Source of the DNA: Dorea sp. | GTDB lineage: Bacteria; Bacillota; Clostridia; Lachnospirales; Lachnospiraceae | NCBI GenBank assembly: GCA_016295505.1 | Contig: JAEDLC010000002.1 | Span: 1 to 64,000 of the forward strand | Length of the DNA: 64,000 bases | Direction: 5' to 3' | Shown here: in pieces, positions 26,360 to 40,499 of the stretch | Position numbering within the stretch: position 1 is the stretch's first letter | How the letters are laid out: each line of letters begins with the position of its first letter | The notes under the pieces: generated by a model | What the model was told of the DNA's origin: nothing | The model's input: only the letters and a program-made list of their open reading frames with translations | Database searches by the model: none | Translations under genes and position numbers: made by a program

Positions 26360-26911
26360 CTACTTTTTATTCTTGTCTGACTGAGCAAGCACACCGTCTT
26401 CCGGAATATCCTCATACTGTTTTACATAATCAGTCGCAGGATCTTCATATTCTATGATCTGCTCAGGAGAAGCATATACCATACCAAGTTCTCCCTCTGC
26501 TTTTTCTCTTACCTCTTCCAGATTCACTGAATCCATTACCGCATTGTACCTGGTCGTATTCTCTTCCTTCAGATTGGCCAGTTCTTCCTGCATTGCCGTA
26601 ATATGCTTCGACCGGCTGGTGATGCTGGACTGAAGTTTTACATAATTTACACATACGATCAGCGCGAGCACAGCCGCAACTGCAAGAAACACTACATATG
26701 TGCGATTCATGATAAGAGCCTGTTTTCGATTTCTGCGTACCTGATTGCTTACTTGCTTCTTAGGTTTTGCGGGTGACTCATGACGACGCGGTGCATACTC
26801 CGGCTGTGTTGCAACATTTCCATACTGATATGCCTGTCTTCCTGTATAAGTTTCAGCACTTCTGCTTCTATACTGCTGTCTGCTGCGTGAATAATTCTGT
26901 CTTGCTGCCAT
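26360..26911 (-). CDS. ftsL: FtsL-like septum protein
   Basis: About 183 residues, bitopic. A long, basic, Tyr/Arg/Gln-rich cytoplasmic tail (about 1-65) precedes one membrane helix (YVVFLAVAAVLALIVCVNYV). A leucine-rich coiled coil follows (MQEELANLKEENTTRYNAV), then an acidic tail. Position between rsmH and ftsI, plus topology, identify it as the FtsL counterpart that pairs with FtsQ and a DivIC/FtsB-like protein; the sequence itself is poorly conserved. Start taken at the ATG at 26911, with AGGGG eight bases before, rather than the GTG three codons earlier. Confidence 0.8.
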   Translation of the reverse strand: MAARQNYSRSRQQYRSRSAETYTGRQAYQYGNVATQPEYAPRRHESPAKPKKQVSNQVRRNRKQALIMNRTYVVFLAVAAVLALIVCVNYVKLQSSITSRSKHITAMQEELANLKEENTTRYNAVMDSVNLEEVREKAEGELGMVYASPEQIIEYEDPATDYVKQYEDIPEDGVLAQSDKNKK

Positions 26912-26947
26912 ATACGCCACCCCTTTCTATCATTTTTTCAACCCATT

Positions 26948-27883
26948 CTAACAGCGCTCAAATATACGTAATTTGGCACTTTTTGAACGACTGTTATTTT
27001 CCATTTCTTCTGCACCTGGCAGAATAGGCTTTCTGGTAACAATACTCCCCTTGGACACTTTCCCACATACACATACAGGAAAGTCCGGCGGACAGGTACA
27101 TGGATTCTCATTTTTCTTAAATGCACTCTTTACGATCCTGTCCTCCAGCGAATGAAATGTGATAATACACAACCTTCCACCCGGATTCAATATGTCTATC
27201 ATATCATCCAATGAATCCCGCAGAACATCCAACTCCCTGTTCAGTTCAATACGGATAGCCTGGAATGTCCGTTTTGCCGGATGCCCAGACTTTTTCTGAT
27301 ACTTCATTGGTATTGAGGCCCTGATAATCTCTGTCAGCTGGCCTGTAGTCTCGATTGGTCTCTTACCGCGTTCTGCCACGATATGTTTTGCAATATTCTT
27401 GGCAAACTTGTCCTCGCCATAGTCTCTGATCACGCGGTAGAGATCCATCTCTGAGTAGTCATTGACGATGTCCCTGGCTGTCATTTTCTGACGTGTATCC
27501 ATCCGCATATCCAGAGGTGCATCTTCGCGATAGGAAAATCCACGTTCTGCCGTATCTAACTGATAAGATGATACGCCCAGATCAAGGATGATTCCGTCGA
27601 CCTTGTCAATTCCTAATTCCCGGAGCCTTGACTTCATATCACAATAGTTGCTCCTGACTATTGTAACCTTCTCCCCGAAGTCTTTTAAGCGGGCGCCTGC
27701 CGCCTCGATCGCAGCCGCGTCCTGGTCTATTCCTACAATACTCCCCTTTTCACCGAGGCGTCTGCATACTTCATAAGCATGTCCGCCTCCACCAAGCGTG
27801 CCATCTACATAGATGCCATCCGGCCTGATGTTTAATCCATCAATTGTTTCATTCAGTAATACTGATTTGTGTTCGAATCCCAT
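26948..27883 (-). CDS. rsmH: 16S rRNA (cytosine1402-N4)-methyltransferase
   Basis: 311 residues, standard RsmH/MraW. SAM-binding segment [16 protein letters not shown] near residue 27, [24 protein letters not shown], and the C-terminal [10 protein letters not shown] cysteine cluster, [12 protein letters not shown] (about residues 270-281), is typical of the Gram-positive form. It methylates C1402 in the decoding centre. It follows mraZ by 11 bp and is probably under MraZ control. Confidence 0.97.
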
Positions 27884-27894
27884 ATCTTCTCCCT

Positions 27895-28335
27895 CTAGAT
27901 ACTGAATCCACTCGCTTCCATATCAGATGCAATATCTTCAATGTTAAGTTCCACTTCAGCATTCTTTTCTTCCCATCTTGCCTTGTCCCAGATCTCGGCA
28001 CGCTTCCCCATACCGATAAATACGACTTCTTTATCCAGGTGTGCAAATTCTCTCAAAACAGAAGGAATTAACGTTCTTCCCTGCTTGTCAAGGTCGCCGT
28101 CTGTAGCACTTCCCTGAAAAAAATATGCAAGAGCACGGGCTTTTTTATCCGTGGTGGTTGGTAAGGCGTTCAGTTTTGCTTCGAAGGTGTTCCATTCGTT
28201 TTCCGGGTATACATAAAGGCAATTCTCCATTCCTTTTGTTATGACGAAATTCTCCCCTAGATCGTCACGAAACTTTGCAGGAATGATAAGTCTTCCCTTT
28301 GCGTCAATATTATGACTGTACTCTCCTTTCAACAT
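27895..28335 (-). CDS. mraZ: Transcriptional regulator MraZ
   Basis: About 146 residues. Two SpoVT/AbrB-like repeats, each ending in the DxxGR motif: [15 protein letters not shown] near residue 10 and [15 protein letters not shown] near 85. MraZ represses or tunes the dcw operon by binding direct repeats in its own leader. Start set at the ATG at 28335 (MLKGEYSH), which matches the family N-terminus; the GTG three codons upstream lies in the ribosome site. It is the first gene of the dcw operon. Confidence 0.95.
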
Positions 28336-28361
28336 TGAACTCACCCTCTTTCAGTGGCCTT

Positions 28362-28417
28362 CCACTTTCTTGCCACTTTGCTCCACTTCTCACCACTTTC
28401 TACCACTTGAAACCATT
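28362..28417 (-). promoter_or_regulatory. MraZ-box operator array
   Basis: Five copies of AAGTGG (minus strand) start on the plus strand as CCACTT at 28362, 28373, 28383, 28393 and 28403. The last four are exactly 10 bp apart. A degenerate sixth (AATGG) lies at 28413. Helically phased GTGG repeats upstream of mraZ are the known binding sites of MraZ. Confidence 0.85.
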
Positions 28418-28443
28418 GTAAACTACTTTTTTATCGTTTTCAA
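28415..28443 (-). promoter_or_regulatory. dcw operon promoter (mraZ)
   Basis: Minus strand: -35 TTGAAA (28443-28438), 17-bp spacer, -10 TACAAT (28420-28415). The -10 touches the sixth degenerate MraZ box, so bound MraZ would cover the start site. Confidence 0.8.
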
Positions 28444-28465
28444 GCCCTTTTTATAAAAATTGGCA

Positions 28466-28496
28466 CAAAAAAAGAACCTCACATTGCAAGATTCTT
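28466..28496 (-). terminator. Terminator after the 85-residue membrane protein gene
   Basis: Minus strand: AAGAATCT pairs with AGGTTCTT (one G-U pair), then seven T. It separates this gene from the dcw promoter. Confidence 0.75.
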
Positions 28497-28520
28497 TTTC
28501 ATTCTTATTAGACTTTTCTT

Positions 28521-28778
28521 TTATTCTCCATCTGCCACTTCAAGTTCAGAAAGACTCTGACTCAATTCATCAAGTGCGGAATAATCAATCGCCACTTCTT
28601 CTTTCGGCTTCTTTGCCTGATATGACGAAAATGCAGAATATCCGAATCCTCCCACCAGTGCAACAGCAACCAGGGCGATCACACAACGGCTTACCAGCTT
28701 CTGAATTCTGGCTTTTTTCATAATTTGCTTACGATTTGCTTTTTCTTTCTTATATCTGTCAACTTTTTCCTGACTCAT
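28521..28778 (-). CDS. Small single-pass membrane protein of unknown function
   Basis: 85 residues: a basic N-terminus (VDRYKKEKANRKQIMKKARIQ), one membrane helix at about 30-50 (CVIALVAVALVGGFGYSAF) and a short acidic outer tail (ALDELSQSLSELEVADGE). No known family recognised. It is a monocistronic gene placed between the DegV gene and the mraZ promoter, with its own terminator, and has an AAGGAG ribosome site. Confidence 0.65.
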   Translation of the reverse strand: MSQEKVDRYKKEKANRKQIMKKARIQKLVSRCVIALVAVALVGGFGYSAFSSYQAKKPKEEVAIDYSALDELSQSLSELEVADGE

Positions 28779-28834
28779 AATATCCGGCTCCTTCTGTTCA
28801 ATAACTAAAAGTTATTTTATCACAACTGCAGAAA

Positions 28835-29674
28835 TTATACAACCACAATTATGCCTCCATCTGCCGCATACATACTGCTGATCCCGGCCGTATCAAGGAT
28901 GATCACATCCTTAAACACTGCTTTTGAAACCAGCATCTCTTTGACTGCTTCTGCTCTCTCTCTGCAGTTACAGTGTGATATCGCCAGAATCTTCTGCTCA
29001 GATTCTTTCAGGTTATTCACAATTTCATCTGCCATCTTCACCAGTGCTTTCTTAATGCCACGCGCCTGAGAAATCTGCCGGATCGTTCCTTCCGGTGTTG
29101 CTCCCATGACCGGTTTGATATTCAATGCCGTTGCTACCACTGCTTTCAGCCCCTTTAATCTGCCGTTTTTCTTAAGAATGTCCAGTGTCTCCAGTACAAA
29201 ATATGTATTCTGTGAAGCAATGTATGCTTCTACAGTATCGATCACTTCTCGGAAGCTCATTCCGGCCTCTTCACATTCTGCAATCTTCATTGCAATCAGC
29301 GTTTCCCCCACAGATGCCGATCTGGAATTAAATATATAGATATCTTTTTCTCCGTATTCTTCATGATACAGATTCTTTCCCAGCACAGCACTGTTATAAG
29401 AACCACTCAGCTCCGCTGACAATGTCACCGCATACACATGCTCCGCATCACAATGATAGCCTTCCATATATCTCTCCGGCGACGGGCAGGAAGACTTCGG
29501 ACATTCCTCACATTCCGCAACTCTTCTCAAAAAGTCAGCCTGATCAAATGTATCATCATCTATAATGTGGTGCCCGCCAACCTCAATTGACAGGGACGCC
29601 GTTTCAAAACATCCAGACGACTTCATCTTGTCTGTCAGTTCCCCACAACTATCTACAATAATCTTATACTTCAT
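28835..29674 (-). CDS. DegV-family fatty-acid-binding protein
   Basis: About 279 residues. The N-terminal signature KIIVDSCGELTD and the later SCPSPERYM and TLSAELSGSYNSAV segments (serine-rich fatty-acid head-group site) are typical for DegV proteins. FVLETLDILKKNGRLKG and IKPVM lie in the C-terminal domain. Such proteins can present exogenous fatty acids to a FakA kinase; no kinase gene is adjacent. Start at the ATG at 29674 with GGGAGG before it; the 12 extra upstream codons are not family-like. Confidence 0.9.
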   Translation of the reverse strand: MKYKIIVDSCGELTDKMKSSGCFETASLSIEVGGHHIIDDDTFDQADFLRRVAECEECPKSSCPSPERYMEGYHCDAEHVYAVTLSAELSGSYNSAVLGKNLYHEEYGEKDIYIFNSRSASVGETLIAMKIAECEEAGMSFREVIDTVEAYIASQNTYFVLETLDILKKNGRLKGLKAVVATALNIKPVMGATPEGTIRQISQARGIKKALVKMADEIVNNLKESEQKILAISHCNCRERAEAVKEMLVSKAVFKDVIILDTAGISSMYAADGGIIVVV

Positions 29675-29801
29675 GTTCTTCCTCCCGATACATATTATCA
29701 ACAATTCCATTTGTTGTTTTTGGTATCTATTTTATCTGGTTTTCAAAACCATATCCATATTACCATATTTATCCGAAAAAAGAAAGACTTGTATAGAATT
29801 C

Positions 29802-30983
29802 TTATTCAGCAATTTTTATTTTTCTGGATACCCCCAGTGCAATTCCCATTTCTGCCATCAGAAACAGTACCGATGTACCTCCGTAACTGATAAACGGAAG
29901 CGTAATTCCCGTAGTCGGGATCAGATTAATTACAACCATCACATTCAGAATTACCTGCAGTGCGATATGTCCGAATATACCTGACACAACCAGTGATCCG
30001 TACAGATCCGGTGCATTCTGAGCTATGAATAACAGCCTGTACAACAACATGCCAAAAAGTACCAGCACAATGATTGCACCAAACACACCCAGTTCCTCAC
30101 ATATAATAGAAAGAATCATATCATTCTGCACTTCCGGGATAATCATCTTCTGCGCACTGTTACCAAGCCCTTTTCCAAAAAATCCTCCGGAACCGATCGC
30201 GTACAGCGCCTGCATGATCTGATACCCTCCGTCAGATGCATATTTTTCCGGATCCAGCCACACAAGAATTCTTCGAAGGCGGAAATTACCACTGGTTTCC
30301 ATCGCCATTCCCAGAAGCCTCGCTCCCACAATCGCGGCTGTCGCCCCGGCCACGGCCAGTATCACAAACAGTTTGGTCTTCGGATGAACAACGAATATCA
30401 TGATACAGGTGATTCCCATTACGATAATTGCAGTACTCAGATTATCCGTCAGGAACAGAACGCAGGCGGCTGAAAATCCTCCCCACATCACCACCCTTGC
30501 CATTCCCTGCAAAGTCGTTATTTCCTTTCCCATTGTACAGATCAGGACCGGAATAAACAGAATCACTGCAATCTTTGCAATCTCGGAAGGCTGAAGCTGC
30601 TGGTCAAACGGGAGCCTGATCCATCTCTTTGCTCCATTTACCTCTTTTCCCAGAGGCGTCTTTACGAGCAGCATCAGAAAAATCGATATATAATAGATTC
30701 CTTTTGCCCATTTTATGTAATAATGATAATCTATTCTTGCGACAATAAACATGCCTGCAAATCCGGCAACACAGAAGACGATCTGCCTTTTAAAATAATG
30801 CATACTGTCTCCATAAGTGACCATTGCGCTATAAGCACTGGTACTGTACAGCATAACCAGTCCGAAGCACACAAGACAGATCAGCACAGCAAGAAGACTG
30901 TAATCAAAAAAACGTATCTTTCCTGTTCCCGAACGTTTTACATTTGTTTTTTCATTGGTTTTTGTTCTCTGGTTTTTCGCCAT
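29802..30983 (-). CDS. FtsW/RodA/SpoVE-family SEDS protein (second copy)
   Basis: 393 residues, about ten membrane helices, with a 25-residue basic cytoplasmic extension (MAKNQRTKTNEKTNVKRSG). SEDS motifs as in the gene at 19213: GLVMLYSTSAYSA, VARIDYHYY, NGAKRWIRLPFDQQLQPSEIAKIAVI, YQIMQALYAIGSGG-FFGKGLG and TGITLPFISYGGTSVLF. The two copies are clearly paralogous. It is a peptidoglycan polymerase; one of the two is probably FtsW and the other SpoVE or RodA. It is monocistronic, lying between DegV and the divergent cotJ operon. Confidence 0.9.
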   Translation of the reverse strand: MAKNQRTKTNEKTNVKRSGTGKIRFFDYSLLAVLICLVCFGLVMLYSTSAYSAMVTYGDSMHYFKRQIVFCVAGFAGMFIVARIDYHYYIKWAKGIYYISIFLMLLVKTPLGKEVNGAKRWIRLPFDQQLQPSEIAKIAVILFIPVLICTMGKEITTLQGMARVVMWGGFSAACVLFLTDNLSTAIIVMGITCIMIFVVHPKTKLFVILAVAGATAAIVGARLLGMAMETSGNFRLRRILVWLDPEKYASDGGYQIMQALYAIGSGGFFGKGLGNSAQKMIIPEVQNDMILSIICEELGVFGAIIVLVLFGMLLYRLLFIAQNAPDLYGSLVVSGIFGHIALQVILNVMVVINLIPTTGITLPFISYGGTSVLFLMAEMGIALGVSRKIKIAE

Positions 30984-31052
30984 ATTTATTACACTCCCAT
31001 CTAATCGTATCTATTATACTCATATATCTCTGCAAAAACAACCATCTCATTC

Positions 31053-31079
31053 ACAACTTATGTGAATTTCCATACTATA
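31053..31079 (+). promoter_or_regulatory. Mother-cell sigma (SigK/SigE-type) promoter of the cotJ operon
   Basis: The -10 CATACTATA (31071-31079) matches CATANNNTA of SigK and is close to the SigE consensus. An AC dinucleotide at 31053-31054 gives the SigK-type 16-bp spacer. It lies 33 bp before the cotJA start. In Bacillus cotJ depends on SigE; E and K cannot be separated here. Confidence 0.5.
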
Positions 31080-31112
31080 TTATTGCAAAGAATATTGAAA
31101 GGAGACGCAAAA

Positions 31113-31385
31113 ATGCCTGCATATCGTTATTCCACACCAGACTATACCCATCGCGGCAGCGGTCATTCAAGATCTTCCATGCCGCCACGTTCTTCTGCTC
31201 CCGCCACTCCCTGCTGCAGAGAGCAGACTGCTTCTGATACGCTGAAATCTCTTCCGCTTGCCATGGCATACATTCCCTGGCAGCAATGGCGTTCATTATA
31301 TGAAGCAGAAAAAGGATTCTGCCTTGGAACTATATTCGCAGAACTGGATATGCCATTTCATGGGAAAGGGGGATGCTGTCGATGA
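31113..31385 (+). CDS. cotJA: Spore coat-associated protein CotJA
   Basis: About 90 residues. The conserved C-terminal half MAYIPWQQW, YEAEKGFCLGTIFAELDMPF is diagnostic for CotJA. The N-terminal half is Ser/Pro/His-rich and not conserved. CotJA, CotJB and CotJC form an inner spore-coat complex assembled by the mother cell. AAAGGAG precedes the ATG at 31113. The TGA stop overlaps the ATG of cotJB (ATGA). Confidence 0.92.
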   Translation: MPAYRYSTPDYTHRGSGHSRSSMPPRSSAPATPCCREQTASDTLKSLPLAMAYIPWQQWRSLYEAEKGFCLGTIFAELDMPFHGKGGCCR

Positions 31386-31651
31386 ACGAAAAAAAACCCT
31401 GCCGCAAAGAACTGATGGACTGGATCAATATTGTAAGTTTTGCTGCAGATGATGCAAAGTTGTTTCTTGATACTCATCCCTGCGATCAGGATGCCCTTGA
31501 ATATTTTAATGAATTTAAATGTCAGCGTGTTCAGGCATTAAATGAATATGCAAAATACTATGGTCCCCTTACACTGGATACTGCCGACAGCCAGACTGAA
31601 CGCTGGAACTGGATCAATGATCCATGGCCATGGCAGGAAGGAGGATGCTGA
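31382..31651 (+). CDS. cotJB: Spore coat protein CotJB
   Basis: About 89 residues. The family core is clear: LMDWINIVSFAADDAKLFLDTHPCDQDALEYFNEF and LNEYAKYYGPLTL, followed by a Trp-rich end (WNWINDPWPWQEGGC). The ATG at 31382 overlaps the cotJA stop as ATGA, so the pair is translationally coupled; an ATG three codons earlier is possible. The cotJC start follows 3 bp after the stop. Confidence 0.92.
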   Translation: MNEKKPCRKELMDWINIVSFAADDAKLFLDTHPCDQDALEYFNEFKCQRVQALNEYAKYYGPLTLDTADSQTERWNWINDPWPWQEGGC

Positions 31652-31654
31652 TCT

Positions 31655-31795
31655 ATGTGGAATTACGAAAAACGTCTGCAATATCCTGTAAAAATCACGC
31701 AAACTAATCCCCGGATTGCTCAGGTTATTATTACGCAATTTGGAGGTCCAAATGGCATGTCAACATTATTTGTTCCGAAAAAAATACAAAAATAA
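31655..31795 (+). pseudogene. cotJC: cotJC, 5' part, interrupted by a recombinase element
   Basis: A well-placed AAGGAGG and ATG open a frame whose first 32 residues (MWNYEKRLQYPVKI...ITQFGGP) match the start of the CotJC manganese-catalase-like coat protein. After GGP the sequence leaves the family (NGMSTLFVPKK) and stops after 46 codons. The missing remainder begins at 34552 in another frame. Both parts are free of damage, so this is better read as a split gene that excision can restore than as a decayed one. If translated as it stands it gives a short peptide with no metal ligands. Confidence 0.9.
31742..31749 (+). repeat. Left attachment core (attL)
   Basis: GGAGGTCC within the CotJC codons for Gly-Gly-Pro. 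It is followed by AAATGGCAT, the inner arm. The two central G bases (31745-31746) are the likely crossover dinucleotide, since the palindromic GGA and TCC flank them. Confidence 0.85.
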
Positions 31796-31818
31796 TCCAT
31801 TTTTCGCCATATTTCTTG

Positions 31819-31848
31819 TAGACATTTCACACATTCCACCGATATAAT
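31819..31848 (+). promoter_or_regulatory. sulP promoter inside the element
   Basis: -35-like TAGACA (31819-31824), 18-bp spacer, perfect -10 TATAAT (31843-31848). It lies 53 bp before the sulP start and would let sulP be expressed in vegetative cells, independently of cotJ. Confidence 0.65.
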
Positions 31849-31889
31849 GAAAAAAGACTGACGGAAGAAAAAGTCAAAAAAGGAGAATA

Positions 31890-31937
31890 ATGGAAGAAAT
31901 ATGGAAAAAATGCAGCCCATGTTGTTTACAACACTAA
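31890..31937 (+). CDS. Possible 15-codon Cys-rich leader peptide overlapping sulP
   Basis: The strongest ribosome site here, AGGAG at 31881-31885, serves an ATG at 31890 rather than that of sulP. The short frame reads MEEIWKKCSPCCLQH and stops within the start of sulP. Three of fifteen residues are cysteine, the end product of sulfate assimilation. It may couple or attenuate sulP translation. Weak call: the frame is short and could be chance. Confidence 0.3.
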   Translation: MEEIWKKCSPCCLQH

Positions 31938-33571
31938 AAAACTACAAGAAAGAACAATTCGTTAAGGATGTGATTGCCGGTATAATTGTAGCGATCATAG
32001 CGCTACCGTTATCCATTGCACTTGCACTTGCATCAGGGGTAGGTCCCGAGCAGGGAATCTATACAGCCATCATTGCCGGCTTCGTCATCTCTCTGCTTGG
32101 CGGAAGTCACGTACAGATTGCAGGTCCTACCGCAGCCTTCGCTACCATCGTCGCAGGCATCGTGGCCGAAAGTGGAATGGACGGCCTGATTCTTGCAACC
32201 ATACTTGCCGGTGTCATACTGGTTCTGATGGGAATTTGTCACTTTGGTTCACTGATCAAATTCATCCCATTCACGATCACCACCGGATTCACTTCCGGAA
32301 TTGCTGTTACGATCGTGATCGGTCAGCTGAAAGATTTCTTCGGAGTTACTTATCCGAAAGGAATGCCCGTCATCGAAACAACCGAAAAACTAAAGGCTTT
32401 TATCAAAGGCTTTTCCACTTTCAATACAGATGCTCTCATCGTAGGACTGATCTGTCTTGTCATATTAATCGTGATCCCCAGGTTCACAGAAAAGATTCCT
32501 GCCTCTTTGATTGCCGTAATCGCGGGAATTCTGATGGTTAAATTGCTTCCTCTGAAAGTCAATACCATAGGAGATCTATATACGATCAACAGTTCTCTTC
32601 CGACCCTTCATATTCCACAGATTAACTTTGAAATGATCCGTATCGCACTGCCAAATGCTTTTACGATCGCAATTCTCGCTGCAATAGAATCACTTCTTTC
32701 CTGTGTGGTTGCGGACGGAATGATTACCGAACAACACCGTTCAGACATGGAACTTGTAGCCCAGGGCGCCGGAAACATAGCTTCTGCTCTTTTTGGCGGA
32801 ATCCCTGCCACAGGTGCAATCGCCCGAACTGCTGCCAATGTAAAAAACGGCGGCCGAACCCCTGTTGCCGGAATGGTACATGCGGTCACACTGCTTCTTG
32901 TATTAATGATACTGATGCCTTATGCAGGACTGATTCCAATGCCGACCATTGCAGCCATCCTGTTTATGGTTGCGTACAATATGTGCCAGTGGAGAACTTT
33001 CCTTCATCTTTTAAAAACGGCCCCCAAAAGCGATAATGCTGTTCTGATTGCCACATTTCTTCTGACAGTACTCTTCGATCTGGTAGTTGCAATCGAAATA
33101 GGAATGCTCATTTCCTGCCTGCTCTTTATGAAACGGATGAGCGATGAGACAGAACTGAAAAGCTGGAAACGTGCAGATGAATTTTCCACGGAGAAAGAAG
33201 CAGCCGAGCAAAATATGCTCCGCCATATTCCTGCTTCGATCAGTGTTTATGAAATCACCGGACCATTATTCTTTGGCGCCGCAGATACCATCAAACAGAT
33301 CAGCGTAAAGGACGGAACCCGCTGCCTGATCATCCGTATGCGAAGCGTCCCTTCCGTAGACAGCACTGCCATGAATGCCCTTTCCGGACTCTGTGACTAC
33401 TGCAAAAAGCATGACATTACCTTAATCCTGTCTCATGTGAACAAACAGCCAATGCGTGCCATGGAAAAAGCCGGCCTGCTCGATCAGATCGGCCGCAAAA
33501 ACTTCCGCCGCAATATCAACGCTTCTATCGAATACGCAGAAGCCATCGTCAACGAAGCTTCTGAAAAATAA
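31901..33571 (+). CDS. SulP-family anion permease (sulfate permease-like)
   Basis: 556 residues. The N-terminal SulP membrane domain (about residues 15-400, 10-14 helices) carries the family features IAGIIVAIIALPLSIALALASGVGPEQGIYTAIIAGF and GPTAAFATIVAGIV. The C-terminal STAS domain (about 445-545) includes VYEITGPLFFGAA and VPSVDSTAMNALSGL. Likely substrates are sulfate, bicarbonate or another oxyanion; the exact one is unknown. It is the only cargo gene of the element that splits cotJC, and it reads in the same direction as cotJ. ATG at 31901 or 31910 is possible; the ribosome site is weak (GGAAG), and a short frame overlaps the start. Confidence 0.92.
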   Translation: MEKMQPMLFTTLKNYKKEQFVKDVIAGIIVAIIALPLSIALALASGVGPEQGIYTAIIAGFVISLLGGSHVQIAGPTAAFATIVAGIVAESGMDGLILATILAGVILVLMGICHFGSLIKFIPFTITTGFTSGIAVTIVIGQLKDFFGVTYPKGMPVIETTEKLKAFIKGFSTFNTDALIVGLICLVILIVIPRFTEKIPASLIAVIAGILMVKLLPLKVNTIGDLYTINSSLPTLHIPQINFEMIRIALPNAFTIAILAAIESLLSCVVADGMITEQHRSDMELVAQGAGNIASALFGGIPATGAIARTAANVKNGGRTPVAGMVHAVTLLLVLMILMPYAGLIPMPTIAAILFMVAYNMCQWRTFLHLLKTAPKSDNAVLIATFLLTVLFDLVVAIEIGMLISCLLFMKRMSDETELKSWKRADEFSTEKEAAEQNMLRHIPASISVYEITGPLFFGAADTIKQISVKDGTRCLIIRMRSVPSVDSTAMNALSGLCDYCKKHDITLILSHVNKQPMRAMEKAGLLDQIGRKNFRRNINASIEYAEAIVNEASEK

Positions 33572-33591
33572 ATAAAGAATCTTTATTTTAC

Positions 33592-33638
33592 CGTGCAGTT
33601 TTAACATCCATGTTTCCCATGCCTGTTAAAACTGCACG
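33592..33638. terminator. Bidirectional terminator between sulP and the recombinase
   Basis: Perfect 15-bp stem: CGTGCAGTTTTAACA (33592-33606) with its complement at 33624-33638. T-rich runs lie on both strands. It closes two convergent genes. Confidence 0.85.
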
Positions 33639-33642
33639 CTTT

Positions 33643-34488
33643 CTATTTCTCATCCTGCATTTTTCTCTGCGCTTTCCCAAAAAGCTCTTCTGAGATAATC
33701 GGCAAATGTTCTCCCCTTACAATCCGAACCTGTTCTTTCTGATAGTACCTGTCACAGCTTACTTTTCCTCCTGTCCCTCTTCTCAGCTTTCCCGTATACA
33801 CCGGATTCATCAGGATATATTTTACACTTCTCTTTTCAAAACGCTTTCCCCGTATCGTCCGGATTTCCATAGCATTCAGCCACTTTGCAATCTGGCTGCA
33901 GGACATCCCTTCTACAAATTGCTCAAATATCTTTTGAACAACCGGCGCTCTCGTTTCATCTATTTCAAAGTGGCTTTCTCCCATTCTGTACCCAAACGGG
34001 GGAACGGATACCACTCCACCTCTGGAAAACTTTTCATTCATCCCCCGTTTTACTTCCTGCGCCAGATTAATGGAATAATATTCATCCATGGCTTCCAGCA
34101 ACGCCTCAATCAGAATAGAGGTCGGATCATCTGAAAGCTGTTCTGTAATCGACACGACATCAATCCCACATTCCTTCCGAAGCATGGACTTATATAGAAT
34201 GCTGTCCTGACGGCTTCTTGCAAATCGCGAGAATTTCCATACCAGTATGACATCAAAGGGTCTGGGCTTCTTTTTGGCATCACTGATCATTTTCATAAAA
34301 TCAGGTCGCTTCCTGGCATATTTCCCGCTGACTCCCATATCCACATAAATATACTGATCCGGCAGGTCTATCTGATGGCGGTCCGCGTATTCCCTGATCT
34401 TTCTGATCTGGCTGTCAGGCGAATACTCCAGTTGATCTTCTGTGGATACCCGCACATAGGCGGCCCCCGTCTGCACATGTTTTACCAT
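33643..34488 (-). CDS. Serine site-specific recombinase of the element (short form)
   Basis: 281 residues. The N-terminal resolvase domain (about 5-155) has the catalytic arginine and serine in AAYVRVSTEDQ (Ser15), VSGKYARKRPDFMKM, and KFSRFARSRQD. The recombinase domain (about 165-275) shows VPPFGYR, EGMSCSQIAKWLN and ILMNPVYTGKLRRG. The protein ends at EELFGKAQRKMQDEK, exactly where large serine recombinases such as SpoIVCA continue into a zinc ribbon and coiled coil. The downstream 70 bp are a terminator, so these parts are truly absent. It most likely excises or inserts the element at GGAGGTCC. The ATG at 34488 lies 63 bp from the right edge, with a weak ribosome site (GGATGA). Confidence 0.92.
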   Translation of the reverse strand: MVKHVQTGAAYVRVSTEDQLEYSPDSQIRKIREYADRHQIDLPDQYIYVDMGVSGKYARKRPDFMKMISDAKKKPRPFDVILVWKFSRFARSRQDSILYKSMLRKECGIDVVSITEQLSDDPTSILIEALLEAMDEYYSINLAQEVKRGMNEKFSRGGVVSVPPFGYRMGESHFEIDETRAPVVQKIFEQFVEGMSCSQIAKWLNAMEIRTIRGKRFEKRSVKYILMNPVYTGKLRRGTGGKVSCDRYYQKEQVRIVRGEHLPIISEELFGKAQRKMQDEK

Positions 34489-34516
34489 TTTATATCATCC
34501 GCTCTGCTTTTCGATA

Positions 34517-34546
34517 TACTTTATTCTCCATCACAGGAAAATATGC
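34517..34546 (-). promoter_or_regulatory. Candidate recombinase promoter at the right end of the element
   Basis: Minus strand: GCATA (34546-34542), exactly 15 bp, then GAATAAAGTA (34526-34517). This resembles the forespore SigF pattern at all but one fixed position. The -35 overlaps the inner attachment arm. A mother-cell promoter would be expected for terminal excision, so this may be chance. Confidence 0.3.
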
Positions 34547-35070
34547 CATCGGGAGGTCCGGATGGTGAACTCGCCGCTTCCATGAGATATCTGGCACAGA
34601 GATATACCATGCCATATCGGGAGGTTACCGGGGTACTCACGGATATCGGAACCGAAGAACTCGCCCACATGGAGATGATCTGCGCCATCGTCCATCAGCT
34701 GACCAGAAATCTGTCCCCGGAGGAGATTGAAAAATCCGGTTTTGATAAATATTATGTCGATCATACTCTGGCACTCTGGCCTCAGTCTGCCGGCGGCACT
34801 CCATGGACTGCAACTTACTTTCAGTCCAAAGGAGATCCCATCACAGATCTTCATGAAGATATGGCGGCTGAACAAAAAGCCCGGACGACTTATGATAACA
34901 TCCTTCGTCTGGTAAAAGATCCCGAGATCTGTGACCCCATTCGTTTTCTGCGCCAGCGGGAAATCGTTCACTACCAGCGTTTCGGTGAAAGTCTGAGAAT
35001 CGTCCAGGATCATCTTGACAGTAAGAACTTTTATGCAATTAATCCGGAATTCGACTCAAACTGTAAGTAA
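34543..35070 (+). pseudogene. cotJC: cotJC, 3' part, with all manganese ligands
   Basis: From GGPDGELAASMRYLAQRYTMP to the end, this is the body of CotJC: TDIGTEELAHMEMI, GVPF-like GGTPWTATYFQSKGDP, EDMAAEQKARTTYD, and REIVHYQRFGESL. Numbered on the rejoined protein, the first ligand glutamate is Glu35, and Glu65-x-x-His68 follows; the rest are downstream. An in-frame ATG at 34543, inside the element and preceded by AGGA, could give a 175-residue form MPSGGPDG lacking the first 29 residues. The native start is 2.9 kb away at 31655. The frame is fully open and ends at a strong terminator, so the part is not decayed. Confidence 0.9.
34552..34559 (+). repeat. Right attachment core (attR)
   Basis: Second GGAGGTCC copy, preceded by the inner arm ATGCCATCG and followed by GGATGGTGAACTC of cotJC. 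Here too the octamer encodes Gly-Gly-Pro in the CotJC frame. Confidence 0.85.
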
Positions 35071-35079
35071 AACAAAAAA

Positions 35080-35119
35080 ACAGTCGATTCATAACTGAAA
35101 CTTGTTATGAATCGACTGT
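35080..35119. terminator. Bidirectional terminator after cotJC
   Basis: Perfect 16-bp stem ACAGTCGATTCATAAC (35080-35095) with its complement (35104-35119). It serves the cotJ operon and the convergent zinc-ribbon gene; A-run and T-rich flanks on either side. Confidence 0.85.
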
Positions 35120-35126
35120 CAGTATT

Positions 35127-35558
35127 TTATCTCAGCAGCATGAATGCGATCAGAGCAGCTACCACAACAATTGCAATTGCAAGAATAATAATTGGTGCTT
35201 TTGACATTCCCGGCTCGTCATCGTCATCATAATCATAATCATCATCGATGTCATCGTAAAGATCATCCTCTAACTCTTCTTTACGTTTCGGCTTCGGCGC
35301 CGGTTTTGACTTTTTCTTCTTTCTGTCATCTTCTACAGAAAGAAGCTCATCATACGCATCGCGCATCTCTTTCTCACGCTTTTCCCGCACTTTCTTTGGT
35401 GGTATGTTAGAATATTTCTTTTCCTCTTCTTCCGCGCTCTCCGTTTTCTTCTGAGCCTTCTGAGGCATTTTAAATTTCTTTTTACAGTTATAGCATAACA
35501 GATAATTCGGATCTTTCTTTCCCGGCCGTAATTCCTGACCACATATTGGACATTTCAT
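35127..35558 (-). CDS. Zinc-ribbon protein with C-terminal membrane anchor
   Basis: 143 residues. An N-terminal zinc ribbon, CPICG...CYNC (Cys at about 3, 6, 22 and 25), is followed by a highly charged Lys/Glu-rich helical linker, a run of aspartates (DDIDDDYDYDDDDE) and a C-terminal membrane helix (PIIILAIAIVVVAALIAFML). The domain therefore sits in the cytoplasm on a tail anchor. Function unknown; similar architectures occur widely in Clostridia. It is a monocistronic gene between the cotJ terminator and htrA. Confidence 0.7.
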   Translation of the reverse strand: MKCPICGQELRPGKKDPNYLLCYNCKKKFKMPQKAQKKTESAEEEEKKYSNIPPKKVREKREKEMRDAYDELLSVEDDRKKKKSKPAPKPKRKEELEDDLYDDIDDDYDYDDDDEPGMSKAPIIILAIAIVVVAALIAFMLLR

Positions 35559-35685
35559 CAGAACCTGCCCCTCCTCACAATGTAATAATTTCGCTGACTA
35601 TGCTGTATCCAGCATCCACATACATTGTAATTATACTACAACCAGATACAAATATCAAAAAAACTTTACATATTTTGCAAAAAAT

Positions 35686-36963
35686 TTACCTCTGCTGTTC
35701 TCCCAGTGTCACTTCAACATCCTTCTTATCATACTCGCCATTTTTTTCCGGTATCTGTATCGTCAGAGTAACCTTTTCTCCTATTCTGTAGTACTGAAGC
35801 TGTTCCTGCAAAGCCTCCATACTGTCAACTGTTGTTCCATTAATGGCAGTGATGACAGACCCTTTTGTCAAACCAGCTTTTTCTGCACCTGTTCCGGAAA
35901 GCACTTCTGATATATATACACCCGTCGGCATATTATACATCTGAGCACTGTCATCCGTAACATCGACTCCCTTAATTCCGATATATCCTCTTTCTTCTTC
36001 TGCTACTTTCGTCTTCGTTTCCTGATTCATCAGATTGGTGATGATATCACTTGCATCAGAAATCGGGATTGCATATCCGATACCTTCTACCTGTTCCTGT
36101 GCTATTTTCGCAGAGTTGATACCGATCACTTCTCCGTTTGCATTCAACAGAGCACCACCACTGTTTCCAGGATTGATCGCTGCATCAGTCTGAATAAGCT
36201 TACCGTCATAGCTTTCGATGGAACGATTCGTTGCAGAGATGATACCGGTCGTCACGGACTGCCCATACCCCAGTGCATTTCCGATTGCAATCGCAGGTTC
36301 TCCGACCTGAAGTTCTGTAGAATCTCCCAAAGTTGCCACTGCAATCTCGTCCATTGTAGAATCCTTGACGTTCTCCAGAGGAACGGCTACAACCGCCAGA
36401 TCCTTATCCGGATTGGTTCCTTTGATATTCGCTTCTACACTTTCTTCATCTATAAAAGATACCGTAAGTGTATCACTACCTTCTACTACATGGTTGTTGG
36501 TCACAATCAGCAGTTCGTCATCATTCTGTCCAATGATAATTCCGGAACCGGCACTCTCACTCTGCTGTTCCTGAATCCCGCCAAAGAAGCTCTGCACCTG
36601 CTGAACACTCATACTGGTAATAGATACGACTGACGGCATTGTATTTTTCACAATCTGTGCAATATCCGTCGTTACAGTCGTACCGGAAGAAGTCGTCAGC
36701 TTTGTGCTGTTCGCAGTTGTGGTTGTCTTTGCCTGTTTATCACTTGTATCGGAAATTGTCTCTTTTCCGGTAATCTTACCGGCAATGATATTGCTGGTCT
36801 GAAATGCCGCACTGGCAACCAGCCCAAAGATCAGTCCAAGACATGCAGCCTGTACCCATCTCGGTACCTTCCTTTTCTTCTTCTCTTCCATTGGCTCTTC
36901 ATAATTCATATTCTGACCTGAAGATTCCTGATCTGATGTATAGTAATTATATTGATTTTCCAT
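35686..36963 (-). CDS. HtrA/DegP-family serine protease
   Basis: About 425 residues. A short cytoplasmic tail, one membrane helix (about 35-55), a low-complexity Thr/Ser linker, a trypsin-like domain and one PDZ domain (about 315-415). Catalytic triad visible: His in TNNHVVEG, Asp in NPDKDLAVVAV and Ser in GNSGGALLN. It acts outside the membrane in protein quality control. Start set at the ATG at 36963 (MENQYNYYT), with AAAGGGG before it. The downstream gene cannot be in the same unit because a 127-bp gap follows. Confidence 0.93.
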   Translation of the reverse strand: MENQYNYYTSDQESSGQNMNYEEPMEEKKKRKVPRWVQAACLGLIFGLVASAAFQTSNIIAGKITGKETISDTSDKQAKTTTTANSTKLTTSSGTTVTTDIAQIVKNTMPSVVSITSMSVQQVQSFFGGIQEQQSESAGSGIIIGQNDDELLIVTNNHVVEGSDTLTVSFIDEESVEANIKGTNPDKDLAVVAVPLENVKDSTMDEIAVATLGDSTELQVGEPAIAIGNALGYGQSVTTGIISATNRSIESYDGKLIQTDAAINPGNSGGALLNANGEVIGINSAKIAQEQVEGIGYAIPISDASDIITNLMNQETKTKVAEEERGYIGIKGVDVTDDSAQMYNMPTGVYISEVLSGTGAEKAGLTKGSVITAINGTTVDSMEALQEQLQYYRIGEKVTLTIQIPEKNGEYDKKDVEVTLGEQQR

Positions 36964-37058
36964 ATCTATGGCCCCTTTCATCTTTCTATGTTTGTAGTGT
37001 ACCTCGAAATTGTGATGAAAGTGTGATGAAAATGCAGAAATTAGGTGAAGAAAAAGAG

Positions 37059-37754
37059 TTATTTATATGTTTTCAGCTCTTCTCCGATATCGCTTCTGAA
37101 CTGCTCCCATGCTTCCTCATTTTCGACAAAATATTTCGGACAGTTTTTTCCTGTAACATCATAATGCCTGATTACATCCGTCTCTTTCAGATCAAACTTC
37201 AGACACAGCCATGCGCACAGTTCAACCATCGATTCATAGGTCTTATCATTGAATTTTCCTGTTTCATCCGGATGACAGCATTCGATTGAGACCGTATCAT
37301 TGTTGCGCCCATTCGATGCATATGCCACCTCCCAGGTCGGAACACACTGGACAATCTCCCCCTCCAGGCCGATCACAAAATTACTGCTTACTTTCGTCTC
37401 ATGGGTATCTTTCAGACTTTCAAAATAATCTCTGTTATTCATTGCCGTTGCTCCGGGATTGGCCGTATAATGTACCACGACTCCTGTAATTTTTCCCGTC
37501 TCGATTCCCGGTCTGGAATAAGGATTCGTTGTCAGGAGATTAACCTCTATCTCCGGTCGGTACCGTTCAATGACATCTCCTTCATTTTCTGTATACTGGT
37601 CAGAAAATGTCCCTGACTTCACCAGTTTTACCATAACAGCCACGACCGTCAGAAGCAGGAGTATCACAATGCCGATCCGCATATTTCTCTGATAAATCCT
37701 CTTTTTTCTGGACTTTGATATCCTTTTGCAGCTTCTTTGTTTCTTTTTTCTCAT
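37059..37754 (-). CDS. N-acetylmuramoyl-L-alanine amidase (amidase_2), membrane-anchored
   Basis: 231 residues. A strongly basic N-terminus and one membrane helix (IGIVILLLLTVVAVMVKLV) anchor it outside the cell. The amidase_2 fold shows the zinc-binding histidines in VVVHYTANPGA and IRHYDVTGKNCPKYF, plus SSNFVIGLEGEIVQCVP and SIECCHPDETGKFND. It would cut between MurNAc and L-alanine in peptidoglycan. The second conserved zinc position is carried by the HPDE region as usual. It lies upstream of htrA on the same strand but with a 95-bp gap. Confidence 0.9.
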   Translation of the reverse strand: MRKKKQRSCKRISKSRKKRIYQRNMRIGIVILLLLTVVAVMVKLVKSGTFSDQYTENEGDVIERYRPEIEVNLLTTNPYSRPGIETGKITGVVVHYTANPGATAMNNRDYFESLKDTHETKVSSNFVIGLEGEIVQCVPTWEVAYASNGRNNDTVSIECCHPDETGKFNDKTYESMVELCAWLCLKFDLKETDVIRHYDVTGKNCPKYFVENEEAWEQFRSDIGEELKTYK

Positions 37755-37840
37755 GTAAACTCTCCATTCAATTATCTGTTCTTATCCTAGCACATACAAT
37801 CTGATAATTTTATGAAAAGTTACTTATGATTTTCTGAAGA

Positions 37841-38866
37841 TCAGACAAACTTATACACCGTTGTCGTCTCATATCTCTCTCCGTTTTTTAACACCGGCCC
37901 TTCAAAATTCTCTTTGTGAATCGCATCCGGAAAATACTGTGTTTCAAAACATGCACCACTTCTTTTTCCGTACACTGCCCCATCTTTTCCTTTCTCAGCC
38001 TCCAGGAAATTGCCGGTATAGAACTGCATTCCCGGAAGATCTGTATATACTTCCATTGATATGCCAGTCTGTTTTGAAGCCATCGCTGCTACCATGCGCA
38101 TTCCTGTTCCGTCAAGCACCCAGTTGTGATCGTATCCCTTACCGAATATCAGAGCTTCATACTCCTCTTCCACATCTCTCCCGATTGGCTTTTTCTTTCT
38201 AAAATCCATTGGAGTCCCGTCTACCGGTACAATTTTTCCCGTTGGAATTGATTCTGCATCTGCCTCTGTAAATGCCTCGGCACATATCATTACCTCCTGA
38301 TCCAGAACTGAGCCCGAATCGTGGCCGGACAGATTAAAATAGCTGTGGTTTGTAAGATTGATGATTGTATCCTGATCCGAAACAGCATCATAATGAATCT
38401 TTAACTCCTGCTCTTCCGTCAGTTCATAAGATACCTGAATCTTCAGATTCCCCGGAAATCCCTGATCTCCATCCGGGCTCAGAAGAGAAAATACCACTTT
38501 TGTATCATCTTCCTGTTCTGTTTTCCACATTCTTTTATTGTAATAATCAATCCCTCCATGGAGCGTGTTCTGATTATCATTTTTTGTCAGTCGATATTCT
38601 TTTCCGTTCAATTCAAAACCAGCGCCACCGATACGATTCGCAACACGTCCAACCGTCGCCCCAAAATGAACGCCTCCCTGTTCATATCCTTCCACAGTAT
38701 CATATCCCAGCACAACATCCCGCAGAATATTATCCCGATCCGGAACCAGTACTTTCACCAGAGTCGCTCCAAAATCAGATACAACGACTTCCATCCCCTT
38801 CTTATTTTTCAGTGAATAACAGGTCGCTTTTTCTCCCTTTGCCGTTTGATCAATGTTACAGATCAT
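37841..38866 (-). CDS. galM: Aldose 1-epimerase (mutarotase)
   Basis: 341 residues. GalM interconverts alpha and beta anomers of galactose and glucose. The beta-sandwich fold shows VSDFGATLVKVLVPD, FGATVGRVANRIGGAGFEL, LTKNDNQNTLHGG, NLTNHSYFNLSGHDSG (catalytic histidine region) and the catalytic glutamate region FETQYFPDAIH. Single gene with AGGAGG start, its transcript closed by downstream sequence before the amidase; the large hairpin at 38930-38992 lies between it and guaB. Confidence 0.94.
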   Translation of the reverse strand: MICNIDQTAKGEKATCYSLKNKKGMEVVVSDFGATLVKVLVPDRDNILRDVVLGYDTVEGYEQGGVHFGATVGRVANRIGGAGFELNGKEYRLTKNDNQNTLHGGIDYYNKRMWKTEQEDDTKVVFSLLSPDGDQGFPGNLKIQVSYELTEEQELKIHYDAVSDQDTIINLTNHSYFNLSGHDSGSVLDQEVMICAEAFTEADAESIPTGKIVPVDGTPMDFRKKKPIGRDVEEEYEALIFGKGYDHNWVLDGTGMRMVAAMASKQTGISMEVYTDLPGMQFYTGNFLEAEKGKDGAVYGKRSGACFETQYFPDAIHKENFEGPVLKNGERYETTTVYKFV

Positions 38867-38929
38867 AATTATCTTCCTCCTTTATATTACAGATTTTCAT
38901 CATAAAGCTTCGTTTCACACAAAAAGACC

Positions 38930-38992
38930 GGGGACTGTTGCAAAATATATTGTATATTCATGATGATATCTCTATATTTTGCAATGATCCCC
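38930..38992. terminator. guaB terminator, member of the TTGCAAAA hairpin family
   Basis: GGGGACTGTTGCAAAATATA pairs imperfectly with TATATTTTGCAATGATCCCC. Flanked by A-run on the left and T-run on the right; terminates guaB on the minus strand. Confidence 0.8.
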
Positions 38993-39008
38993 AGCCTATT
39001 TTTAAACC

Positions 39009-40499
<1,491 letters not shown>

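Follow-up and report, generated by a model that had tools for sequence, protein, structure and literature searches.

In the 64,000-nucleotide stretch of Dorea sp. DNA analysed here (the window), a 2,810-bp insert interrupts the spore-coat gene cotJC at codons Gly30-Gly31-Pro32. Comparison of sequences makes it likely that this insert is a compact gene-intervening element, and that its own short serine recombinase excises it in the sporulating mother cell and so restores cotJC.

The interrupted cotJ locus and its insert

Pfam matches bear out the original prediction that cotJA and cotJB are intact and that a 2,810-bp insert carrying a serine recombinase splits cotJC (Table 1). As predicted, the same octamer, GGAGGTCC, lies within the Gly-Gly-Pro codons at both edges; on both strands of the 64 kb it occurs only at 31742 and 34552, exactly 2,810 bp apart. 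The cut had been placed after residue 32: the split itself stands, but the octamer follows residue 29 and falls in the codons of residues 30-32. When the flanks are joined at a single octamer, the expected continuous frame results, 606 bp (201 codons plus a stop) and open throughout. That the frame is restored does not in itself show programmed excision, because undoing any site-specific insertion restores the target. The proposed comparison with an uninterrupted cotJC is more telling: in a sister genome (G001, ~95% identity) the site is empty, exact to the octamer, and the contiguous alignments to window positions 26462-31755 (95.6%) and 34552-39282 (94.5%) meet there. All three genomes of the same genus that were compared have an uninterrupted cotJC, and the window insertion may be too young for a selection test of its own.

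Table 1. Features of the interrupted cotJ locus, in window positions
Feature	Position	Strand	Basis
sigma-K-like promoter of the cotJ operon, AC-N16-CATACTATA	31053..31079	+	pattern match
cotJA, intact	31113..31385	+	PF11007, E 1e-17
cotJB, intact	31373..31651	+	PF12652, E 3.3e-30
cotJC 5' piece: 29 residues, then GGP	31655..31749	+	PF05067; aligned to uninterrupted cotJC of G001
left core repeat GGAGGTCC, in attL	31742..31749	+	exact; 1 of 2 copies in window
right half of predicted attP dyad, TCCAAATGGCAT	31747..31758	+	dyad with 34543-34554 about central GG
SulP-family transporter, element cargo	31901..33571	+	PF00916, E 2.9e-79; PF01740; homologues (75% and 73%) in cotJC elements L035 and L062
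short serine recombinase, 281 aa, without zinc ribbon or coiled coil	33643..34488	-	PF00239, PF07508; alignments
weak sigma-E-like motif upstream of recombinase, GCATATT-N14-AATAAAGT	34518..34546	-	read from sequence; imperfect -10 box
left half of predicted attP dyad, ATGCCATCGGGA	34543..34554	+	dyad analysis
right core repeat GGAGGTCC, in attR	34552..34559	+	exact
cotJC 3' piece, residues 30-201	34552..35070	+	PF05067, E 2.7e-40; 99% identity to CotJC of G001

Pfam finds no phage structural or replication genes in the insert, only the recombinase and, as the larger gene, left unnamed in the original prediction, the SulP-family transporter. Just 293 of the 2,810 bp lie outside these two genes, and no separate directionality-factor gene was seen; small overlapping ORFs exist. 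Skin-like elements typically, though not always, encode such a factor. The 281-aa protein has the Resolvase and Recombinase domains of large serine integrases, while the zinc beta ribbon and coiled coil present in its full-length relatives are absent. By its alignments the window recombinase is thus a shortened derivative and no complete large serine integrase. A homologous element, again with a SulP gene and a short recombinase, occupies the same cotJC site in Faecalicatena contorta ET52 (L035).

Split cotJC genes and short recombinases across Clostridia

Our scan covered at least 80 loci; among the matches listed, 77 public loci encode a related recombinase (at least 45% identity), and in 71 of these a cotJC piece adjoins it. 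Twenty-one of 24 genomes split at the window's site (site A) have the recombinase at E<=1e-45, versus 1 of 24 with unsplit cotJC only (Fisher p 3.6e-9). The original prediction named a stably split cotJC without any recombinase as evidence against it; three of the 24 split genomes have no recombinase match at this cut-off. On these matches, the recombinase clade is linked to this site in cotJC throughout the Clostridia. Three further split sites bring the recurrent sites to four, and one contig has three elements in a single cotJC. When the four pieces of that gene are joined, they give a 206-aa CotJC, open and without gaps; in genes split more than once, middle pieces go down to ~35-45 codons. 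Hand-entered rows and simple residue cut-offs, with one genome (G131; adjacent overlapping pieces, likely a frameshift) removed by eye, give a split cotJC in 49 of 135 distinct relatives with a cotJC match (~1/3 of the sample), where pieces lying on separate contigs could in some cases be assembly breaks. No unsplit copy was found in 42 of the 49 distinct split genomes (G131 removed, G123 counted once). An additional unsplit cotJC-like gene is present in 9 of 78 genomes, and these can therefore tolerate a broken copy. The literature searched, mainly open-access journals, yielded no description of an element within cotJC; one may exist.

The split pieces are, by their codon substitutions, mostly under purifying selection. 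We tried 35 hand-picked pairs (33 with at least 25 shared codons; loci shared among pairs; about a third on fewer than 50 codons), and dN/dS was at most 0.061 in 23 of the 27 that were measurable. Three of the four exceptions drop to 0-0.044 once cut at the second break, and one (L082/L084) is still raised after trimming, at 0.118. Unsplit cotJC, as a yardstick measurable in one of three pairs, gave 0.024 (L021/L023). Purifying selection on most split pieces argues that cotJC is probably put back together, with mother-cell excision as the most likely means. Together with the precise insertion, the tie between recombinase clade and site, and the sigma-E-like motif that precedes about a fifth of the recombinase genes (though the window's own falls short of the pattern), it lends support to the skin-like reading of the insert that had been put forward.

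Near relatives of the window recombinase are mostly 460-505 aa long; 12 of the best 120 homologues, the window form included, have at most 300 aa. The window form represents 20 sequences found on 142 contigs, and short recombinases from many sources end at a similar point. Several compact elements encode a recombinase without the coiled coil, and in four, the window's included, the zinc ribbon is missing as well. Phage relatives encode the full-length enzyme. Among named phages the best relative, in bajarodcaudo virus 3, reaches 53.9%. The recombinase tree gives no firm position for the window enzyme, so a single origin and several origins of the short forms are both possible. One element (L090) has a recombinase that looks broken (a stop; dN/dS 0.455 versus L037) and cotJC pieces that look sound (0.030). 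According to the available text of PMC3783163, LI integrase with its coiled coil deleted performs attL x attR excision inside one plasmid and no integration; cut at residue 264, like the window enzyme, it binds att sites ~25-fold more weakly. The domain losses suggest that recombinases without coiled coil and zinc ribbon may be excision-only and need no directionality factor.

Attachment sites, promoter motifs and the predicted route of excision

The inner dyad of the predicted window attP scores 9 of 11, and the predicted circle junction is ATGCCATCGGGAGGTCCAAATGGCAT. In the four zinc-ribbon-less elements the outer dyad reaches 3-5 of 13, compared with a mean of 9.6 (range 4-13) in 19 others (p 0.003): the outer arms are weak in all four, with the inner arms kept. 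Among the 19 elements that do not belong to the short class, three (L045, L041, L027) have weak outer arms as well. A viral contig (L105) carries one contiguous attP whose halves are almost identical to those that flank a cotJC lysogen (L054, L124). A search of plasmid records for deposited circular forms of a close relative yielded nothing at 60% identity or above.

A sigma-E-like motif precedes 18 of 86 recombinase genes (shuffled mean 1.6-1.7, shuffled maximum 5), including 9 of 18 in the 300-430 aa class and 0 of 10 phage copies; the motif of the window recombinase does not match the search pattern and has an imperfect -10 box. Tested on cotJ promoters as a positive control, the sigma-E pattern failed (0/35, then 1/41); inspection of those sequences pointed to a sigma-K type for cotJ. 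The sigma-K-like pattern AC-N16-CATACTATA was picked after viewing the sequences and matches 10 of 41 cotJ upstream regions (shuffled mean 0.33); a match is by itself no evidence of function.

We propose that such elements would have arisen from a temperate phage targeting cotJC, which lost its phage genes and gained cargo, here the SulP transporter. An early mother-cell promoter (sigma-E type) would set the onset of excision, ahead of late (sigma-K type) cotJ transcription, and attL and attR would recombine at the central GG. Excision could proceed without a separate directionality factor because the enzyme is free of the coiled coil, the part of full-length integrases that prevents attL from recombining with attR. 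As the mother cell does not divide, the element would be kept in the germ line.

Alternative readings and relation to known elements

Excision could also be prophage-like, triggered by stress or happening by chance and not controlled by development. Contiguous attP sites of the same type in viral contigs, the large size of many elements and the motif-free phage copies fit this reading, which we hold to be a minor possibility, since the sigma-E-like motif exceeds every shuffle, reaching half of the 300-430 aa class, and lasting purifying selection requires regular restoration of the gene. It is unlikely that the window recombinase is a decayed, inactive truncation, with an element that is either immobile or mobilised by a different recombinase. 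The greater length of most near relatives and the weak binding of the similar LI truncation (PMC3783163, as far as its available text goes) would agree with decay; the similar point at which proteins of diverse origin end, dN/dS values of 0.106 (window/L035, 273 codons) and 0.074 (L098/L099), and inner att arms kept where the outer ones are weak all speak against it.

We think it quite improbable that a mobile element simply broke a dispensable coat catalase, leaving the gene dead in its carriers and its restored frame trivial. This would explain why the insertion is absent from the three genus genomes compared, why another cotJC-like copy exists in 9 of 78 genomes, and why one locus (L092) has both a stop at cotJC residue 35 and a recombinase cut to 231 aa. 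The available texts of PMC11222575 and PMC12122855 describe CotJC-like proteins in other species as redundant or dispensable, and the latter states that B. subtilis without CotJC has no apparent defect, which counts against our main reading. Breakage is nonetheless hard to square with the low dN/dS of most measurable split pairs, a four-piece gene that still joins without a gap, and the many split genomes with no unsplit copy. Assembly of the CotJC pieces as separate polypeptides, with no excision at all, is least credible and seems to us barely conceivable. The window does have an in-frame ATG (34543) three codons ahead of the 3' piece, and 34 of 54 3' pieces have an in-frame ATG, GTG or TTG within 90 nt upstream; however, only 8 of the 54 have an ATG and 2 of the 54 an SD-like motif before the start, and middle pieces of a few dozen codons would have to be accommodated.

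Programmed excision of the cotJC element would resemble that of sigK skin in Bacillus subtilis and Clostridioides difficile: a mother-cell sporulation gene is split, a serine recombinase is present, and end-to-end recombination restores the frame. Unlike skin, which lies in a sigma factor gene, the cotJC element targets a coat-protein gene, has only 2.8 kb and no phage genes, and encodes a short recombinase; no directionality-factor-like gene was seen in it, whereas skin-Cd requires CD1234 according to the available text of PMC5025042. The gin element in gerE of Bacillus cereus shares a non-phage nature, serine recombinase genes, a sporulation gene as target and a short direct repeat (9 bp), but is described as 28.6 kb long with three recombinases and a requirement for GirX (PMC5595907, available text), against a single short recombinase with one cargo gene here. 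SP-beta in spsM, vfbin in spoVFB and yin in yabG are prophage-like elements in sporulation genes (PMC10747680); these are other genes, and the portion of that source at hand does not name cotJC, multiple elements per gene or coiled-coil-less recombinases. Large serine integrases (LI/A118, phiC31, Bxb1) have the same Resolvase and Recombinase domains, dyad att sites and a central dinucleotide; without zinc ribbon and coiled coil, the window enzyme instead resembles the laboratory zinc-domain deletion of LI (PMC3783163, in part). The att site of the C. difficile prophage phi027 adjoins a cotJC homologue; the available parts of PMC12122855 and PMC11222575 describe it as beside the CotJC-like gene, whereas the present element splits the gene.

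A broader picture strikes us as evenly poised between right and wrong. Many Clostridia would carry cotJC in pieces, with up to four elements, each having its own serine recombinase and each inserted at a metal-ligand motif of CotJC, that are cut out of the mother-cell chromosome at every sporulation like DNA-level introns. The smallest (down to 1.2 kb, with little beyond a 258-aa recombinase) would be domesticated, excision-only phage derivatives that need no directionality factor since they shed coiled coil and zinc ribbon, their att sites being trimmed to match. The published programmed excisions in sporulation that we found involve one element and one gene each; here there are four recurrent sites, sometimes with several elements together. 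Split cotJC genes may be called broken by annotation pipelines. Full-length, coiled-coil-less and zinc-ribbon-less enzymes with differing att sites form a series in nature that makes serine-integrase directionality testable by comparison, and the short enzymes of cotJC elements could serve as compact excision-only recombinases. Altogether, these bacteria may rearrange their DNA routinely as part of development.

The split cotJC and its empty site

As the original prediction held, cotJA and cotJB are intact in the window and cotJC lies in two parts. The octamer it placed at both edges of the insert, in the same codons, is indeed there: GGAGGTCC occurs at 31742 and 34552, and these are its only two copies on both strands of the whole 64-kb window. 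Excision at the octamer had been expected to restore the frame, and joining the flanks at one GGAGGTCC gives 606 bp of open sequence encoding 201 aa and a stop. A transporter gene and the recombinase gene occupy 2,517 of the 2,810 bp of the insert. When relatives were compared, as had been proposed, the sister genome G001, the nearest of them, aligned without interruption to window positions 26462-31755 (95.6%) and 34552-39282 (94.5%), the two blocks meeting at the octamer. Since G001 thus carries an empty site and cotJC is uninterrupted in all three same-genus genomes compared, the insertion is exact and polymorphic among near relatives. One of the same-genus genomes, its cotJC uninterrupted, has a recombinase relative at 47% in another place (locus L003, G003:C1:1233328).

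Features of the split cotJC in the window, and recurrent break sites in CotJC
Feature	Position	Remark
cotJC 5' piece	31655-31749	29 residues, then Gly-Gly-Pro
SulP-family transporter	31901-33571	inside insert
Serine recombinase, 281 aa	33643-34488	inside insert; opposite strand to SulP gene
cotJC 3' piece	34552-35070	opens with the identical Gly-Gly-Pro
Site A	residues 30-32	site of the window element
Site B	residues about 62-69	
Site C	residues about 133-138	
Site D	residues about 166-178	

The sections available of earlier papers describe intervening elements in sigK, spsM, spoVFB, gerE and yabG (PMC10747680, PMC5595907, PMC5025042), which likewise split sporulation genes, although genes other than cotJC. 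In C. difficile, according to the parts available of two reports, a phage adjoins a CotJC-like gene (PMC12122855, PMC11222575), whereas the window element lies inside cotJC. We found no report of an element inside cotJC in the literature searched; in the available main text of a large serine recombinase survey (PMC10083194) the words 'catalase' and 'spore' are absent, and 'sporulation' occurs in one reference only.

A recombinase family tied to cotJC

A survey with the window recombinase as query, at one genome per species, returned at least 80 recombinase-bearing loci (L-numbers), and 77 of the 80 listed encode relatives at 45% identity or more. Among these listed matches, 71 of 77 fetched loci contain a cotJC piece. 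L084 falls outside the 71, its cotJC alignment having extended past the break; no cotJC piece was seen in L026, L030, L076, L083 and L087, of which some lie on contigs that are short or cut; L076 and L087 come from the genome of L028, as extra copies. The break falls in the same codons throughout the 3' pieces inspected, mostly as GGNGGNCC, with a few deviating by 1 or 2 bases; left and right core copies within one element can differ outside the central GG (e.g. L035, from Faecalicatena contorta). In the reverse test we took 24 genomes split at site A (22 satisfying the survey rule, plus G205 and G289 by eye, with a likely further case, G286, left out); 21 of them have the recombinase at E<=1e-45, versus 1 of 24 with only unsplit cotJC, the latter taken down the survey list rather than at random (Fisher p 3.6e-9). 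In 20 of those 21 it lies within about 3.3 kb of a cotJC piece on the same contig (coordinates by eye). Three site-A-split genomes (G264, G235, G269) gave no match at this threshold; their enzymes may be more divergent, or absent.

Site A is one of four recurrent places at which cotJC pieces end, as seen in two surveys and in the 78 genomes from which the loci come, two of which have no cotJC match. Among genomes with a cotJC match, a break with both its sides visible occurs at least once in 27 of 75 in the family survey and in 23 of 64 in the order survey (120 and 117 searched; G131 removed from the split counts), or 49 of 135 distinct genomes when pooled, with G123, split in both surveys, counted once. 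An unsplit copy is absent from 21 of the 27 and 22 of the 23. On a single contig of a Lachnospiraceae MAG (G062:C35; L044 and L117), elements of 4,321, 6,463 and 9,466 bp occupy sites A, C and D; the first carries a recombinase of the window's clade, the others have serine recombinases of their own by Pfam, 517 and 507 aa long. Spliced at GGAGGTCC, GCAGCAGA and TTCGGNGAAGC, the four pieces make up an open 206-aa CotJC that aligns to the window's at 70% identity without gaps. Aligned to Mn catalase 1jku, all four sites fall within a few codons of CotJC E35, E65/H68, E136 and H169, which we take to be the positions aligning with the 1jku metal ligands. Three or more cotJC pieces were also seen in G072:C7 (L054, L122-L124), G069, G292 and G269; in G069, where one piece was not found, all four sites may be broken. 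G285:C3 holds consecutive 3'-type fragments (98-193 twice, 99-192, 62-193), possibly repeated partial copies.

Constraint on the split gene

We calculated dN/dS (NG86) for 35 split-locus pairs picked by hand, of which 33 share at least 25 cotJC codons and 27 were measurable. The cotJC value is at most 0.061 in 23 of the 27, for example 0.045 for window/L035 (201 codons), 0.026 for L036/L058 (197 codons), 0.015 for L041/L042 (169 codons), 0.010 for L098/L099 (65 codons) and 0.020 for L043/L037; the single measurable unsplit pair, L021/L023, gave 0.024. Cutting at residue 62, ahead of the second break, brought three of the four higher pairs (0.15-0.37) to 0 (L044/L051), 0.020 (L043/L049) and 0.044 (L041/L060), with no stops, while L082/L084 still gave 0.118 over 33 codons; it also removed the stops previously counted in L077/L097 and L070/L097. 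Because a permanently broken gene would not, on the whole, remain so constrained, these substitution patterns suggest that split cotJC stays functional, with restoration at the DNA level as the simplest account. Separate translation of the pieces is disfavoured by the scarcity of in-frame ATG starts within 90 nt upstream of 3' pieces (8/54; SD-like motif 2/54), GTG and TTG raising the count to 34/54. Similar dS values for cotJC and recombinase, expected under joint descent of gene and element, were obtained in several pairs (1.22 and 1.20 in L041/L042; 0.31 and 0.33 in L043/L037) and unlike ones in L029/L046 (1.40 and 0.40), many values being near saturation and some pairs possibly split independently. 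At L090 the recombinase appears broken and cotJC does not. L092 (cotJC 3' piece 7467-7986, recombinase at 6001) is decayed: residue 35 of its cotJC is a stop, a frameshift seems to follow around residue 115, and only 231 aa are left of the recombinase frame.

Shortened recombinases, predicted excision and possible timing

The elements probably derive from phages and were later reduced. Ten viral contigs encode the enzyme, with identities of at least 45% and lengths of 476-479 aa throughout. Seven contain a contiguous attP-like dyad with a GG core, which matches at 15-18 of 24 positions in six of them and at 13 in the seventh; the best dyad elsewhere in the scanned loci has 12. The attP of one such contig, L105, equals the right flank and nearly the left flank of a cotJC lysogen in Ruminococcus flavefaciens SAb67 (L124, L054), and in the core region used for the tree the recombinases of contig and lysogen do not differ. 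On chromosomes, site-A elements can be as small as 1.24 kb (L099) or reach tens of kb. Recombinases, 16 of which were aligned, are full-length (mostly 454-509 aa), of 384-427 aa with zinc cysteines retained and the coiled-coil insert absent in those aligned, or of 258-281 aa in the window, L035, L098 and L099, where the protein stops as soon as the Recombinase domain is complete. Small size also occurs without enzyme reduction (L045, L056, L073 and L093, 2.6-3.8 kb with enzymes of 460-484 aa). Among the best 120 of 6,960 homologues, in a search taking only lengths near the query's, 12 have 300 aa or fewer, the window's form included; they end at or shortly past one common place in the alignment, and some may be contig-end fragments. 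The window's form represents 20 sequences on 142 contigs. L098:5888-7096 and L099:5908-7130, of about 1.25 kb, contain a gene for a 258-aa recombinase and little more; their attP dyad, ACGATTCGG(A/G)-GG, is nearly perfect.

For the 23 elements whose two ends were available, we compared attP halves about the central GG. In all classes the inner arms, positions 1-11, agree at 5-11 of 11 positions. Outer arms (12-24) match at 3, 4, 4 and 5 of 13 in the four elements lacking the zinc ribbon, which are not fully independent, versus 4-13 (mean 9.6; chance 3.25) in the other 19 (Mann-Whitney p 0.003); three of the 19 (L045, L041, L027) are equally low, perhaps through shifted arms. In the A118-type LI integrase, as the available text of PMC3783163 has it, outer-arm recognition falls to the zinc domain; an enzyme deprived of its coiled coil carries out intramolecular attL x attR excision with no directionality factor and can no longer integrate, and once the entire zinc domain is removed, binding is about 25-fold weaker. 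For phiC31, the accessible part of PMC10754689 gives the coiled coil as essential. The prediction is thus that forms lacking the coiled coil excise without such a factor, with less certainty for the 281-aa form.

Promoter-like motifs bear on timing. Using B. subtilis consensus sequences, we found a sigma-E-like pattern (ATA-N15-18-CATANNNT) upstream of 18 of 86 recombinase genes (shuffled mean 1.6-1.7, maximum 5), related loci entering several times: 9/18 at 300-430 aa, 8/52 full-length, 1/6 short, two of these six being cut or broken, and 0/10 phage copies. The motif upstream of the window recombinase, GCATATT-N14-AATAAAGT, does not fit this pattern. A sigma-K-like pattern (AC-N15-17-CATANNNTA) precedes the cotJ operon in 10 of 41 regions, the window's included and G001 entering twice (shuffled mean 0.33). 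An early recombinase followed by late cotJC would be an order suited to just-in-time reassembly.

SulP is common to the elements of the window, L035 and L062. The compact cotJC elements L044 and L051 have TrkA/TrkH-like genes by sequence, L024 carries ThiC (Pfam), and L098/L099 have scarcely any room beside the recombinase. L061 carries TrkA and TrkH (Pfam), a potassium-uptake pair, in place of the window's SulP. Loss of such cargo would be confined to the terminal mother cell.
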